Origin: Akkermansia muciniphila
GTDB taxonomy: Bacteria > Verrucomicrobiota > Verrucomicrobiia > Verrucomicrobiales > Akkermansiaceae
Assembly (NCBI GenBank): GCA_945890645.1
Contig: CAMDCV010000030.1
Location: 1 to 52,548, forward strand
DNA: 52,548 bases
Direction of reading: 5' to 3'
In this document: positions 25,676 to 31,346 of the stretch, one piece after another
How positions within the stretch are numbered: the first letter of the stretch is position 1
Layout of the letters: every line of letters begins with the position of its first letter
The notes under the pieces: generated by a model
The model's input: only the letters and a program-made list of their open reading frames with translations
Databases searched by the model: none
What the model was told of the DNA's origin: nothing
Program-made: the position numbers and the translations under genes

Positions 25676-25694
25676 TCGCCCCCGCACATGAGTG

Positions 25695-25732
25695 TATATT
25701 TTCGCATCATCAAATCGCGATGCGTTGATATA
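25695..25732 (+). promoter_or_regulatory. Leader stem-loop with alternative pairing upstream of the homocysteine gene
   Basis: tatat (25695-25699) and cgcatc (25703-25708) can pair with gatgcg (25719-25724) and atata (25728-25732), leaving a symmetric internal loop of three and a 10-base hairpin loop. An overlapping alternative stem pairs atcaa with ttgat. It ends 37 bp before the start codon. Mutually exclusive stems suggest control of translation, but it matches no SAM, SAH or cobalamin riboswitch that I recognise. Confidence 0.28.
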
Positions 25733-25769
25733 TTCTTGCCAAGTGGGCACCGATCCCCTATCCTCGCGC

Positions 25770-26864
25770 ATGCCACCAACTGATCTCACTGCCGAACTCA
25801 CAGCTGCCTTGAAGGAACGCATTCTCGTTCTCGATGGCGCCATGGGCACGACGATCCGCACCTACGGACTGAGCGAGGAGCAAGCACGAGGCAAACGTTT
25901 TGCCGACAGCAAAAAGGACATCCTCAACAATGGCGACATCCTCACGCTCACTAACCCGCAGGTCATTGGCGATATTCACAAGCGCTTTTATGAAGCAGGC
26001 TCGGACATCGTCGAAACGAACAACTTTTCCGCGACTTCAATTTCGCAATCGGAATTCTTTGTCGATGACCCCCGCGAACACGGTGGCCGCAAAGACCCTG
26101 AGTTTTTCCAAGGGATCATCGAAAACCCCTTCCTACGCGATCTCGCTTGGGAGATCAATGTCGAGTCCGCCCGCCTCGCTCGTCATTGGGCGGATCAAAT
26201 CGGCAGCGATACGGGTGTGAAACGCTACGTCGCGGGTGCGATCGGGCCGCTCACAGTCTCTCTCACCAATTCGCCCGATGCCAACGACCCCGGCTTTCGC
26301 GTGATCACTTTTGATCAAGTGCTGATCGCCTATAAAGAACAAATCCGCGCTCTCATCGAAGGTGGCTCCGACTTGCTGATGGTGGAAACAATTTTCGATT
26401 CACTGAATGCCAAAGCCGCGCTTGTCGCGATTCAGGATGTCTTTGCGGAGGACAATGTCCGCTTGCCCATTATTGTCTCCGCAGCGGTCGGTCGCGGTGG
26501 CGAAACGATGATCTCGGCGCAAACTTCGGAGGCTTTGTGGAATGCTGTTGCACACGCCGAGCCATTGGCGATCGGATTGAATTGCTCGCTCGGTCCGGAC
26601 TTGATGAAGCCGTTTTTGGAAGAGCTTTCCCAATCGGCCACAACGCATATTTCCTGCTATCCGAATGCTGGTTTGCCGAATCCCCTATCGCCCACAGGCT
26701 TCGACATGACGCCCGACGACATGAACCGCTGGCTCGCCGAATTCGCCAACTCCGGTCTTCTCAACCTTGCCGGAGGTTGCTGCGGCAACACTCCTGAACA
26801 CGTCGCCGCCATCGCAAAAGCCGTCCGCAACGTCGTCCCACGCGAAGTGCCAACCCTTGTTTAA
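25770..26864 (+). CDS. Homocysteine S-methyltransferase domain protein (N-terminal module of split MetH)
   Basis: 364 residues from ATG 25770 (MPPTDLTAEL); an in-frame upstream start at 25692 is unlikely. It is the homocysteine-binding barrel of cobalamin-dependent methionine synthase: ILVLDGAMGTTIRTYGL at the start, DIVETNNFSATSIS, and the three zinc cysteines in GLNCSLGP and GGCCGNTPEH. E. coli MetH carries this as its first about 350 residues; here it is a separate polypeptide, and the remaining modules are encoded at 27675. The two presumably work together in homocysteine methylation. Between them lie the duplicated GxxExxY segments. In other genomes a free Hcy module can also work with other methyl donors. 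Confidence 0.9.
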   Translation: MPPTDLTAELTAALKERILVLDGAMGTTIRTYGLSEEQARGKRFADSKKDILNNGDILTLTNPQVIGDIHKRFYEAGSDIVETNNFSATSISQSEFFVDDPREHGGRKDPEFFQGIIENPFLRDLAWEINVESARLARHWADQIGSDTGVKRYVAGAIGPLTVSLTNSPDANDPGFRVITFDQVLIAYKEQIRALIEGGSDLLMVETIFDSLNAKAALVAIQDVFAEDNVRLPIIVSAAVGRGGETMISAQTSEALWNAVAHAEPLAIGLNCSLGPDLMKPFLEELSQSATTHISCYPNAGLPNPLSPTGFDMTPDDMNRWLAEFANSGLLNLAGGCCGNTPEHVAAIAKAVRNVVPREVPTLV

Positions 26865-27304
26865 AATCATGATCCAACAAAACGCGGAGTCGCAAAGGTC
26901 GCAGAGGAAATCGCAGAGGAAATCGCGGAGGTTTTCATTTACATTACCCAAATATCCCTGCGCTCCTCTCCGCGACCTCAGCACCTCTGCGCTTCGATAA
27001 ATTTCCACCTAACAACTGATGACAACCGCATCCGAATTAAACGAGCTTTCTAGCAAAATTATTGCTGCTTCGATTAGCCATCACATCTTTGCATCACATC
27101 TTTGAAATCATGATCCAACAAAACGCGGAGTCGCAAAGGTCGCAGAGGAAATCGCGGAGGTTTTCATTTACATTACCCAAATATCCCTGCGCTCCTCTCC
27201 GCGACCTCAGCACCTCTGCGTTTCGATAAATTTCCACCTAACAACTAATGACAACCGCATCCGAATTAAACGAGCTTTCTAGCAAAATTATTGCTGCTTC
27301 GATT
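26864..27304 (+). repeat. Direct segmental duplication, hairpin-rich, with start of GxxExxY gene
   Basis: Two copies of one segment: copy 1 is 26864-27075 (212 bp) and copy 2 is 27105-27304 (200 bp), joined by 29 bp of unrelated sequence (27076-27104). They differ by a 12-bp internal duplication in copy 1 (gcagaggaaatc repeated) and by two substitutions that I noticed (gcgcttcg/gcgtttcg and ctgatg/ctaatg). Each copy runs from aaatcatgatccaac through the first 19 codons of the GxxExxY gene. Inside each, a cgcggagtcgcaaaggtcgcagagg arm and a cctctccgcgacctcagcacctctgcg arm form a long imperfect inverted repeat. This 'cgcggag...cgcagag' sequence type is familiar around GxxExxY genes. Confidence 0.92.
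27019..27105 (+). pseudogene. Truncated first copy of the GxxExxY gene
   Basis: The first 19 codons (MTTASELNELSSKIIAASI) are identical in protein to the intact gene at 27248. After the duplication endpoint at 27075 the frame continues with nine unrelated codons (SHHIFASHL) to a TGA at 27103-27105. It lacks the GxxExxY motif and the nuclease-like core, so it is a remnant. Confidence 0.85.
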
Positions 27305-27649
27305 GAAGTGCACAAAGAGTTAGGCTGCGGTTTGTTAGAGCGAGTGTATGAAGCAGCTTTGCACTATGAATTAACAACCATGGGAATACAATGCATTCGC
27401 CAACAACCCGTTCCTGTTCGCTATAAAGGTGTTTTACTTGACGAAGAAGGTTACAAAATGGATCTGCTGGTGGAAAATTGCATTATCGTCGAATTAAAAA
27501 CTGTGCCACAACTACTCCCGATTCACTCCTCGCAATTACTAACCTATCTTCGGTTAAATCAGAAGAATCTCGGCTTACTCATCAATTTCAATGTGAAATT
27601 GTTGCGAGAGGGAATTAGTCGTGTCGTCAACAATTTCCCCAAAGAATAA
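27248..27649 (+). CDS. GxxExxY protein (PD-(D/E)xK nuclease-like)
   Basis: 133 residues. The defining motif is G28-L-L-E31-R-V-Y34, followed by a basic strand (QQPVPVRYKG) and a D72...E82-x-K84 arrangement (KMDLLVENCIIVELK) that matches the PD-(D/E)xK nuclease core. The family is widespread in environmental bacteria, often as a single-gene insertion near repeats, and its biological role is not established. Here it lies between the two methionine-synthase genes, and its 5' end is duplicated. Start codon ATG 27248 is the second-copy equivalent of 27019. It ends 25 bp before metH. Confidence 0.9.
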   Translation: MTTASELNELSSKIIAASIEVHKELGCGLLERVYEAALHYELTTMGIQCIRQQPVPVRYKGVLLDEEGYKMDLLVENCIIVELKTVPQLLPIHSSQLLTYLRLNQKNLGLLINFNVKLLREGISRVVNNFPKE

Positions 27650-27674: not shown

Positions 27675-30600
27675 ATGAAGACCATTCCACGCCTCCTGCG
27701 CCTGTCGGGCTCTCAGCCATACAATCATACGCCCGACAAAAATTTCTTGATGATCGGCGAACGCACGAACGTCGCTGGCTCGCCGCAATTTGCGAAGTTG
27801 ATCCGTGCCGGAAAACTGGAAGATGCGTTAGAAATCGCACGACAACAAGTCGAGAACGGCGCGAACGTAATCGACATCTGCTTCGACGATGGCCTCATCG
27901 ATGGCAAAGCGATGATGGCGCGTTACCTGCAACTTTTGCAAAGCGAACCAGACATCGCCAAGGTGCCGATCATGGTCGATTCGTCGAAATGGGAAATCCT
28001 CGAAGAAGGCCTCAAATATCTGCAAGGCAAGGGCATCGTGAATTCGATCTCGCTCAAAGAAGGCGAAGAAACCTTCAAAAAATGCGCGCGCCACATCAAG
28101 AAATTCGGTGCCGCCGTGGTGGTGATGGCATTCGATGAAAAAGGCCAAGCCGCGACCTACGAAGAAAAAATCCGCATCTGCGAACGCGCCTATCGGATTC
28201 TCGTGGATGAGGTGCATTTCCCGCCGCAGGACATTATTTTCGATCCGAACATCCTGACGGTTGCCACAGGCATCGAGGAACACAACAACTACGCGCTCGA
28301 TTTCATCAATGCCACGCGATGGATCAAGGAAAACCTTCCCTACGCCAAGGTCAGCGGCGGAGTCTCGAACATTTCCTTTTCCTTTCGCGGCAACAACGTC
28401 GTGCGTGAAGCGATGCATTCGGTGTTTCTCTACCACGCCTGCAAAGCGGGCATGGACATGGGCATCGTCAATGCGGGCATGCTCGAAGTTTACGATCAGA
28501 TCGCGCCGGAGTTGCTAGAAAAAGTCGAGGACGTGATTCTCAATCGCCGTCCCGATGCCACTGAGCGCCTTCTCGATCTCGCCGAATCATTTAAGAACGT
28601 CACTGGCAAGAAAATCGAGGAAGACCTTACGTGGCGCAATGAGCCAGTCGAAAAACGTTTGGAATATGCGCTGCTCAAGGGCATAGACCGTTTCATCGAG
28701 GAAGACACTGAGGTCGCCCGCGTGAAGTACGGCATTCCTTTGAAAGTCATCGAAGGTCCGCTGATGGACGGCATGGGCGTGGTCGGCGATCTCTTCGGTG
28801 CCGGAAAAATGTTTCTACCCCAAGTGGTGAAATCCGCGCGAGTAATGAAAAAATCCGTCGCATGGTTAGAGCCGTTCATGGAGTTGGAAAAAATCGCCAA
28901 AGCCGAAACCCTTCGCTTTCTCAGCGAGCGCGATGCCGGACTCACGCCGGAACCCGTCAAGTTATGCGATGGATTTTCCTACACCCCCTATCCCGATCTC
29001 AGCGATGAAGAGCGTCGTGTCGAGTATGAATTCGCCGCCATGCTCGCGGGCAATCTCACGACCACTGCCACGCAATACCAAGCCCGCTTCGGGATCATCC
29101 TCGATCGCAATAGCGTCCAGGAACTTTCCCCGCTTTACAACCAATCCCGCGAGTCCCGACAAAAGTGGAGCGTCGCCACCCTCGAACCTGCGGGTGCATT
29201 CATCGAGTGGCTCTTTTACCAAAAAATCAAATCCCTCCCTCCCGAGAGTCTGATCGTCTTCAACGCCGGCGGCCAAGGCAGTGGCAAGACTACGGCCACT
29301 GTCGGGTTGTCGGAGGAAGATGGTGCCGCGCTCATCATGGATGGAACGCTGCAAAATTGCGAACGATCTATTGCTCACGTGGAATCCGCTTTGCAACACG
29401 GTCACGCGGTCAATATTCGTTACGTATTTTGTCCTTGGAAAAAAGCGTTAGAAAACGTCATCCGGCGTGCCTGCGCTGAGGGTGGCAGGATCGTTCCTCT
29501 TCGACGCTCGGCAAAAGGTCACTATCAGGCACCGCGCACATTCATTGAAGTTTACGAGCGTTTCAGCTCCCATGAAAGGTTCATTTCCTGCGTCATTGAC
29601 AATAGCATTTTCCATCTACCACAGATGCGCGATACCACATGGCTGAGCGAACAGCTCTATCCCAGCACCGATTTTCTCCTTGAAAATTCCCTCAATTATG
29701 TCAAAATCCAACTACAAAGTTATGAGCACATCATCGACCAAAAAGTCAGAGCCATCTTCTTCGACGAGCCATCTTCTTCGGGAGAAAGCACGCTTGATCA
29801 ACGAGAAGTCTCTGAAGCTTCTGCGTCAGGCGGGCGAGACCAAGGAAGCGCAAAAAGCGCCCACCAAGCCAGTCAACTAGCCCCCACCTCTGCCGGAAAA
29901 TTTCTCATCGCTACTGTGAAGGGCGATGTGCACGACATCGGCAAAAACATCGTCGGGGTTGTCTTGTCTTGCAATGGCTTTGAAGTCACCGATATGGGCG
30001 TTATGGTTTCTTGCGATAAAATCCTCGCGAAAGCGAAGGAACTCGGCGCAGACATCATAGGACTTTCAGGCCTCATTACACCTTCGCTCGATGAAATGGT
30101 GCACGTTGCTAAGGAGATGGAAAAGCTCGGCATGACGACTCCGTTGCTCATCGGTGGCGCCACAACCTCTGCCGCACACACCGCCATCAAAATTGCACCG
30201 CACTACTCTGGTCCGGTGGTGCATGTGCTCGATGCCTCGCGCTCGGTGCCTGTTACCACCTCGCTGCTCTCCGCCGATCAGCGAGAGAATTTCGCCAAGG
30301 CCAATCGGGAAAAACAGAACAGCATCCGCATCGACTTCGAAAAAGGAACGAACAAAAAGCCGACCATTTCGTTAGAAAAGGCTCGTGCGAACAAATTCAC
30401 TTGCGACTGGGAAACCTACCAACCCGCCGTGCCAGAATTCCTCAGCACCCGCGTCATTGAAAATCAATCCCTGCGCGAACTCGCGAACTACATCGACTGG
30501 ACACCCTTTTTCCATGCTTGGGAAATCCGCGGCGTGTGGCAATCCGATACCCAAACGCTCAAAACTCAGAATGCCGAGGGAGCCATCGAAGCGCAAAAAA

Positions 30601-31346
30601 TTTACGCCGATGCGCTAGCGCTGATCGAACGGATTATCGCCGAAAAACGCTTCACCGCACGCGGCATCTACGGCTTCTTCCCCGCCAATTCCGACGGCGA
30701 TGACATCATCGTCTGGACCGATGAACAGCATACCGCCGAACGCTGCCGTCTCCACACCCTGCGCCAACAAATCGATAAAACCTGCGGCAAGCCAAACGTC
30801 GCTCTGGCGGATTTTGTCGTTCCTAAAAAAAATGTATGCACAGACTACATCGGCGGGTTCGTGCTTGGCATCCACGGTGCCGATGAATTCGCACAAGAAC
30901 TCGAACAACAAAACGACCCTTACACCGCCATCATGGTCAAGGCGATCGCCGACCGCTTTGCGGAGGCCTTCGCGGAATTGCTTCACCACCGTGCCCGTGT
31001 CGCCTGGGGCTACGAGCGCCCTAACGAGTTTAACCACAATGAGCTCATCAAGGAACTGTATCGTGGCATCCGTCCTGCTCCCGGTTACCCAGCCCAGCCT
31101 GACCACACGGAAAAGCCTATCCTTTTCGATCTACTCGATGCGACCGCGAAAACAGGCGTCAGCCTCACCGAATCGAACGCCATGCATCCAGCGTCCGCGG
31201 TCAGCGGCATTTATTTCTCACATCCGGAGAGCCATTATTTTGCCCTCAGCGATCTGCAACGCGATCAAATCGAAGACTACGCCCGCCGCAAGAAAATGAC
31301 TCTCGAAGAAGCTGAACGTTGGCTCGGACCATGGCTTGGATATTGA
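27675..31346 (+). CDS. metH: Cobalamin-dependent methionine synthase without Hcy module, with inserted P-loop domain
   Basis: 1223 residues. Order: pterin-binding barrel (about 14-290, [31 protein letters not shown]); cobalamin cap (about 310-406, ending [16 protein letters not shown]); an insert of about 330 residues (407-737); cobalamin-binding Rossmann domain with the cobalt-ligand motif D751-V-H753-D-I-G; and the AdoMet reactivation domain (about 905-1223, ending [20 protein letters not shown]). Without the insert the length (about 890) equals MetH minus its homocysteine module, which is encoded at 25770. The insert carries a P-loop (K538) and resembles a zeta-toxin-type kinase. It lies exactly in the cap-to-cobalamin linker, a part that must move during catalysis. 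The ORF is open throughout. Activity of the fusion is unproven; the C-terminal modules look intact. Confidence 0.9.
28893..29885 (+). other. In-frame insert in metH: zeta-toxin-like P-loop kinase domain
   Basis: Residues about 407-737 of the MetH ORF have no counterpart in known MetH. After a short linker comes a helical region ([17 protein letters not shown]-like, then [29 protein letters not shown]), then a P-loop GGQGSGKTT (residues 532-540). Next are a strand with AALIMDGTL, helix [14 protein letters not shown], an [11 protein letters not shown] segment and VIDNS. This order matches free-standing zeta-toxin family P-loop kinases, which phosphorylate small molecules such as UDP-GlcNAc, but I cannot assign a substrate. 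The family and the border positions are inferred by eye. Confidence 0.72.
29749..29780 (+). repeat. 15-bp direct repeat with 17-bp period inside metH insert
   Basis: gagccatcttcttcg occurs at 29749-29763 and again at 29766-29780. The 17-bp period shifts the frame. If one period is removed, the kinase frame would read IFFGRKHA and stop at TGA 29795-29797. With the duplication present, the ORF stays open into the metH cobalamin domain. Confidence 0.9.

Follow-up and report, generated by a model that had tools for sequence, protein, structure and literature searches.

A zeta_1-like kinase domain and an overlapping small gene in the cap-B12 linker of methionine synthase: a putative two-gene module in Verrucomicrobiota

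The gene for B12-dependent methionine synthase (metH) of Akkermansia muciniphila carries an in-frame insert in the stretch of DNA analysed here, contig CAMDCV010000030.1 of GenBank assembly GCA_945890645.1 (positions 1 to 52,548 of the forward strand; this whole stretch of 52,548 nucleotides is referred to as the window). The main metH open reading frame (ORF) is open throughout with no interruption, and the insert occupies residues 407-737 of its product (331 residues), in the linker that joins the cap (residues 326-399, Pfam B12-binding_2) to the B12-binding domain (residues 742-835, Pfam B12-binding). It holds a P-loop kinase of the zeta family and, across the 3' end of the kinase, a small gene in the +1 frame of metH (Table 1). 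The original prediction, made from the sequence by eye, had placed an in-frame zeta-family P-loop domain in this linker, and both its family and its borders agree with the Pfam, profile, structure and model comparisons. It recognised the kinase and missed the dual coding of the last part of the insert. It had also described MetH as collinear with known MetH apart from the insert. Compared with MetH of the TIGR02082 family, the protein differs both by the 331-residue linker stretch and by the homocysteine-binding domain, which is absent from the main ORF and separately encoded. All five domain types (homocysteine, pterin, cap, B12-binding and activation) are present in the window, spread over two ORFs.

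Table 1. Features of the metH locus in the window and the basis on which each was assigned.
Feature	Position	Strand	Basis
Main ORF of metH, 1223 residues, with the pterin, cap, B12-binding and activation domains and the insert	27675..31346	+	Pfam and NCBIfam matches
In-frame insert: N-terminal helical part, zeta_1-type kinase, linker	28893..29885	+	Profile and structure matches
Walker A / P-loop, GGQGSGKTT	29268..29294	+	Sequence
Asp-Arg-Asn; its Asn takes the position that the catalytic base Asp has in zeta kinases (Asp56 in ng_zeta1)	29103..29111	+	Alignments, counts
Overlapping small gene, +1 frame of metH, stop included; candidate antitoxin-like partner	29722..29880	+	Shared ATG, substitutions, joint loss
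metH-frame reading of the overlap, a predicted disordered linker	29769..29885	+	AlphaFold2 model, low identity
B12-binding domain	29898..30179	+	Pfam match
Homocysteine-binding (S-methyl_trans) part of MetH, own ORF	25692..26864	+	Pfam PF02574, E 1e-75; NCBIfam metH match

The kinase is most similar to zeta_1 of the gonococcal epsilon_1/zeta_1 pair. The insert matches Pfam Zeta_toxin (PF06414) at E 3.5e-10, with 40.1 bits against a cut-off of 22.3. An AlphaFold2 model of the insert minus its 3' linker (292 residues, 38 sequences in the alignment) has a predicted local distance difference test score (pLDDT) of 88 and a predicted template modelling score (pTM) of 0.86. By far the best structural match of this model is zeta_1 (6EPG/6EPH), with Z 26.7 and 2.3 A over 256 residues; Foldseek relates the model to zeta_1 at E 1.6e-11, and the sequence profile of the insert does so at E 4.1e-8. 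Pfam score and structural match together identify a zeta kinase fold with a P-loop, as in ng_zeta1. Among the structural matches interpreted (Z 8 and above), the next family is classical zeta (Z 10.7). Classical epsilon/zeta and PezAT (1GVN, 3Q8X, 2P5T) and AvrRxo1-ORF1/ORF2 (4Z8Q, 4Z8U, 4Z8V) share the zeta fold only distantly, at Z 9.9-10.7, far weaker than the match to ng_zeta1.

Residue counts are taken from alignment A2, which has 38 rows and leaves out L056, L062, L068, L070, L075 and L115, in which the cap motif was not found by script; alignment A4 (34 rows) also lacks L025, L028, L052 and L057. Two active-site arginines of zeta_1 are kept in the inserts, R196 (Arg175) and R203 (Arg181), each in 37 of 38. 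The string GGQGSGKT was the criterion by which 44 intact inserts were selected, and its invariance is therefore uninformative. No ATG is conserved inside the kinase before the P-loop, the commonest being present in 12 of 38 rows (ATG being the one start codon counted), so the embedded kinase is probably produced only as a domain of MetH. Other kinds of inserted element were considered and rejected. An intein is not indicated, as no Hint or homing-endonuclease family occurs in the Pfam matches (P0001, P0002) up to E 1, and the insert has neither a PADLOC match as a defence system nor a PHROG match as a phage protein family.

The insert is a recurrent, patchily distributed feature of Verrucomicrobiota and not a peculiarity of one unusual MetH. 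A search of 57 related genomes with the insert of the window gave matches in 15 (E 0.001); the matches were strong in 12 of these, the window's own counted, and in all 12 they lay within the MetH ORF. A profile of the insert (A1) matched 55 of 288 genomes of the order. A full-length or near-full insert in MetH was found in 31 of the 288 genomes (the P-loop is intact in 30 and degenerate in G001), the N-terminal part alone in four (G041, G175, G065, G185), a scar of about the first 57-64 profile positions in 13, and matches solely outside MetH in seven. In the collection of named genomes there are 41 insert loci, all labelled Verrucomicrobiota; insert and B12 motif share one ORF at 39 of them, and the motif was not found by script at the other two. 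These carriers include a cultured isolate, Verrucomicrobium sp. BvORR034 (L084), and genomes labelled subdivision 3, Pedosphaera and Opitutaceae. A search of the phylum matched 11 of 387 genomes, and the three matches beyond the window's order (G338, G537, G627) are weak, partial and in ORFs of 3942, 2895 and 214 residues. No relative of alignment A2 was found in viral contigs, and the stand-alone relative P0005 had no match among plasmids at E 1e-6. No kinase or toxin domain in MetH was found in the titles and abstract openings of the literature matches listed.

An assembly or frameshift artefact, a concern raised with the original prediction, is very unlikely, because the insert recurs in a single-contig genome (G082), in many assemblies and in one named isolate. 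In eight MetH genes (L136-L143) an in-frame scar is shared (AELGAVFEVEGEAALQQKLESLR...), and the kinase and the small gene are gone. G101 (L071), which has a full insert, is placed among these scar carriers on the tree of MetH flanks with modest support.

At the 3' end of the insert, the +1 frame encodes a recurring helical-looking core, followed by a stop ahead of the B12-binding domain. Counted from the ATG at 29722, the small gene in the window has 52 codons, or 60 if it starts at the ATG upstream, at 29698. Across carriers the predicted small protein has mostly 52-70 residues. Read in the metH frame, the same region is poorly conserved, with a mean pairwise identity of 0.22 (model residues 405-445) against 0.82 for the B12-binding domain and 0.49 for the kinase, and in the model of cap, insert and B12-binding domain residues 407-445 have pLDDT under 50.

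The substitution pattern was examined in 64 pairs drawn from 36 of the 44 loci, with sequences shared between pairs and body identity of 0.62-0.985; the ORF start was taken as the Met giving a length nearest 63, which differs from the shared ATG in L025, L052 and L057. In the kinase body, substitutions at metH codon positions 1, 2 and 3 number 1912, 1377 and 4766 over 9218 codons, and in the overlap they number 1376, 839 and 923 over 3356 codons. The fast-changing position thus shifts from the third position of metH codons in the body to the third position of the +1 codons in the overlap. Position 3 exceeds position 1 in the body of 63 of the 64 pairs, and position 1 exceeds position 3 in the overlap of 52. 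Mean amino-acid identity in the overlap is highest for the +1 frame (0.59), followed by the metH frame (0.475) and the +2 frame (0.44), even though the alignments were built on the metH frame; identity in the +1 frame is higher than in the metH frame in 57 pairs, level in two and lower in five. As judged from these substitutions, selection has acted on the +1 frame of the overlap, and we infer that the small gene is translated.

The presence of the ORF is weaker evidence than the substitution pattern, because composition alone yields many such ORFs: 43 of 44 intact inserts carry, close to the B12-binding domain, a +1 ORF with a length of 50 codons or more, and synonymous shuffles predict 16.3. 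The corresponding +2 ORF is found in none of the 44, with 0.1 expected, so that its absence is uninformative. An ATG falls in alignment columns 163-171 in 42 of 44 inserts (the other two were not scored there), upstream of the conserved part of the +1 peptide. The small ORFs were sought from ATG to stop, so each necessarily has an ATG; that the ATG falls at a shared position does not follow from the search.

Kinase and small gene are also lost together in the genomes sampled. By the same rule, among 18 MetH loci whose P-loop is lost or broken, one has a +1 ORF (G041), and in G001 the ORF is shortened to 39 codons (Fisher test of 43/44 versus 1/18, 4e-13, a value that kinship inflates). When 288 genomes were searched with a small-protein profile, 31 matched: 29 matches are at a MetH insert, one is a stand-alone homologue in G115 and one, in G035, was dropped as chance since it has an internal stop and lies over another gene. 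Of the 30 genomes whose MetH insert is intact, the profile picks up 28, and of the 18 others it picks up one; many of the 28 also contributed to the profile, and at most 21 candidates were scored per genome, so misses are possible. Over all pairs, similarity of the kinase part and of the small protein are correlated (Spearman 0.62), as for any linked pair. The stand-alone homologue (L185:3537-3656; G115:C25:8536-8655; E 1.5e-7) lies near an AAA_25 protein, and no kinase was seen within about 1.5 kb of it; it is perhaps an orphan antidote on a mobile element.

Kinase identity tracks MetH flank identity weakly (Spearman 0.32, 630 pairs). Of the eight most discordant pairs listed, five combine flanks 96-99% identical with kinases 43-48% identical. 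The kinase of G009 is 0.43 identical to those of its genus mates, against 91-99% identity for its cap, B12-binding domain and N-terminal part. The closest match of its kinase half is L024 (0.47, level with L028), and its small protein is nearest L056 and L024 (0.37 and 0.35). When the presence of an intact insert is mapped onto a tree of 70 MetH flanks, 12 changes are required, and well-supported branches force six of them. In these comparisons the insert resembles a cassette subject to exchange and loss, with in-frame scars left behind.

The host enzyme probably works. MetE (PF01717, E 1e-20) was found neither in the window's genome, which has one MetH match, nor in nine genus mates, with the control positive in 10 of 14 genomes. 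The suggestion that the insert might disable the enzyme is therefore unlikely to hold for the window. This argument is limited to the window's genus, because other carriers (e.g. G037, G048) have full MetE matches.

Comparison with known systems suggests what the pair may be. Zeta_1 phosphorylates uridine diphosphate (UDP) sugars at C4', and its small antitoxin epsilon_1, bound in extended form, covers the ATP site, whereas the epsilon antitoxins of streptococci form three-helix bundles (PMC5923241); the epsilon_1 gene has 186 bp and the zeta_1 gene 1206 bp, and the two are adjacent in a putative operon (PMC2848598). The insert resembles the ng_epsilon1/ng_zeta1 pair of Neisseria gonorrhoeae plasmids (6EPG, 6EPH, 6EPI) in its kinase fold, P-loop and active-site arginines, and in having a small candidate partner gene of about 60 codons adjoining the kinase. 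It differs in that the kinase lies inside MetH, in that the candidate partner gene overlaps the kinase in the +1 frame, and in that the match, over chain residues 3-266 of zeta_1, does not reach the C-terminal OB domain. The small gene has a fitting size and a +1 frame under selection, but its predicted product lacks detectable sequence similarity to ng_epsilon1. Outside MetH, zeta_1-like kinases are found at L117 (G089, an ORF of 368 residues) and L125 (G082, the end of a long ORF). Each has a +1 ORF over the kinase 3' end, and the two small proteins match each other weakly (E 2e-4, a single comparison). This hints at an older overlapping arrangement of kinase and small ORF, but the one small protein tested did not match the MetH-nested family.

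On balance, we read the insert with moderate confidence as a two-gene module, related to the epsilon/zeta pair of the gonococcal zeta_1 kind, in the linker of a working MetH. The module would once have been toxin-antitoxin-like, and would now be either an addiction cassette or a domesticated switch. One gene would be the kinase, made as part of MetH, and the other the small protein, made from its own +1-frame ATG across the kinase 3' end, with the overlap nucleotides serving in the metH frame as a disordered linker from kinase to B12-binding domain. The small protein would bind the embedded kinase and cover its ATP site, as epsilon_1 does on zeta_1. When it runs short, the kinase could bind ATP and phosphorylate a small-molecule acceptor, or could alter the domain movement of MetH. 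Because a nonsense or frameshift mutation within the kinase would disrupt methionine synthase as well, retention of the insert would be favoured, and the module may amount to an addiction cassette joined to a housekeeping gene. A comparable principle has been used in engineered gene overlaps that guard costly genes against loss, where overlap likewise couples the fate of two frames (PMC8528312); those are synthetic, whereas the MetH case is natural and lies in a housekeeping gene. More tentatively, the insert could be a toxin-antitoxin cassette inside an essential enzyme, its kinase existing only as a MetH domain, its antidote lying in another frame, and divergent kinase-antidote pairs being swapped by recombination inside a metH that is conserved elsewhere. 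If so, a housekeeping gene would offer a stable, swappable home for a selfish or defensive module. Such a nested arrangement of a toxin-antitoxin system was not found among the literature matches listed.

Several results weigh against the two-gene module reading, and the altered active site is the chief of them against a plain toxin. The catalytic base is Asp56 in ng_zeta1 and Asp67 in the Streptococcus pyogenes zeta (PMC5923241). The corresponding column is Asn (Asn77) in all 38 MetH inserts, within the invariant Asp-Arg-Asn, and that of Lys59, the UNAM contact, is Gln (Gln80) in 38 of 38. Three relatives outside MetH (P0005, P0006, P0007) retain the catalytic Asp, which in P0005 falls on Asp56 in the phmmer alignment. 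With Asp56 and Lys59 replaced and the arginines kept, nucleotide handling therefore looks retained and the acceptor side altered, and the insert may be no UDP-sugar kinase, or its toxicity may have been lost. In addition, G001 keeps its metH frame despite a broken P-loop. On the side of the small gene, composition accounts for part of the ORF presence, the metH frame is the better conserved one in the five pairs mentioned above, L028 fails the strict +1 ORF test, and the small-protein profile misses G036 and G129 (the genomes of L028 and L057). The small protein has no Pfam match above cut-off, a PDB search with its profile at E 1 turned up no epsilon_1 chain, and hhalign gave no match between it and the overlapping ORF of the relative L125.

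The substituted active site can also be taken as a sign of domestication. The former toxin would then be an ATP-sensing (pseudo)kinase arm with the small protein as its regulatory subunit, tuning MetH to energy or precursor supply, with toxicity gone. The loss of the base alongside conservation of Asp-Arg-Asn and of two arginines favours this, as do the cap helix, which continues into the insert in the model, and the ten genomes of the window's genus in which MetE was not matched. A purely regulatory role is nevertheless somewhat unlikely, since the patchy presence on the flank tree, the loss that leaves scars, and the divergent kinases in near-identical MetH genes better fit a selfish or arms-race element.

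Two further explanations concern the +1 frame and are less probable than domestication. The ORF might be untranslated, its pattern stemming from an RNA element or a past gene, with the insert a tolerated passenger domain. No Shine-Dalgarno sequence common to the regions upstream of the ATGs was seen by eye, and the P-loop is gone in G001 and G041 with the metH frame intact, both of which are in keeping with this idea. It is improbable given that substitutions track the third position of +1 codons, that the position of the ATG is shared, and that 17 of the 18 loci with no intact P-loop lack the ORF. A programmed +1 frameshift near the end of the kinase would instead yield a short pterin-cap-kinase product with a helical tail. 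The +1 frame is indeed open across the kinase end and stops before the B12-binding domain. A frameshift would have no need of an ATG upstream of the conserved +1 peptide, and because its position is common to 42 of 44 inserts we rank this explanation last and consider it very improbable.

Other elements in or beside metH were seen as well. In the window, within 26851-27649, a GxxExxY gene (TIGR04256) at 27248-27649 separates the homocysteine ORF from the rest of MetH, and ahead of it are direct repeats of 165 nucleotides, 99% identical, at 26911-27075 and 27140-27304. The splitting of metH may be due to the arrival of this gene. Outside the window, a second in-frame MetH insert lies in the activation domain at L177-L184 (G005, G007, G008, G028, G031, G034, G042, G002); these eight genomes were chosen for a MetH gap at that place, and it is present in 8/8. 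It is a Y1 (IS200-like, RAYT-type) transposase (PF01797, E 8e-9 in the G005 copy, the sole copy scanned). Several copies are flanked by sequences, for example VAEASRLPA and AGRRDASAT, which by eye resemble an inverted repeat. G005 carries both the zeta-type insert and this one.

An additional domain of about 330 residues is tolerated in the interdomain linker of MetH, an observation relevant to the movements of the enzyme. If the proposed reading is true, a pair derived from a toxin-antitoxin system can colonise the linker of a housekeeping enzyme, with its partner gene in an alternative frame that is easily missed by annotation. It would be a natural case in which gene overlap protects a module from loss, and a reason to search 'fused' toxin domains for further nested small genes. 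It would also open a connection of one-carbon metabolism with zeta-type kinases to direct testing.
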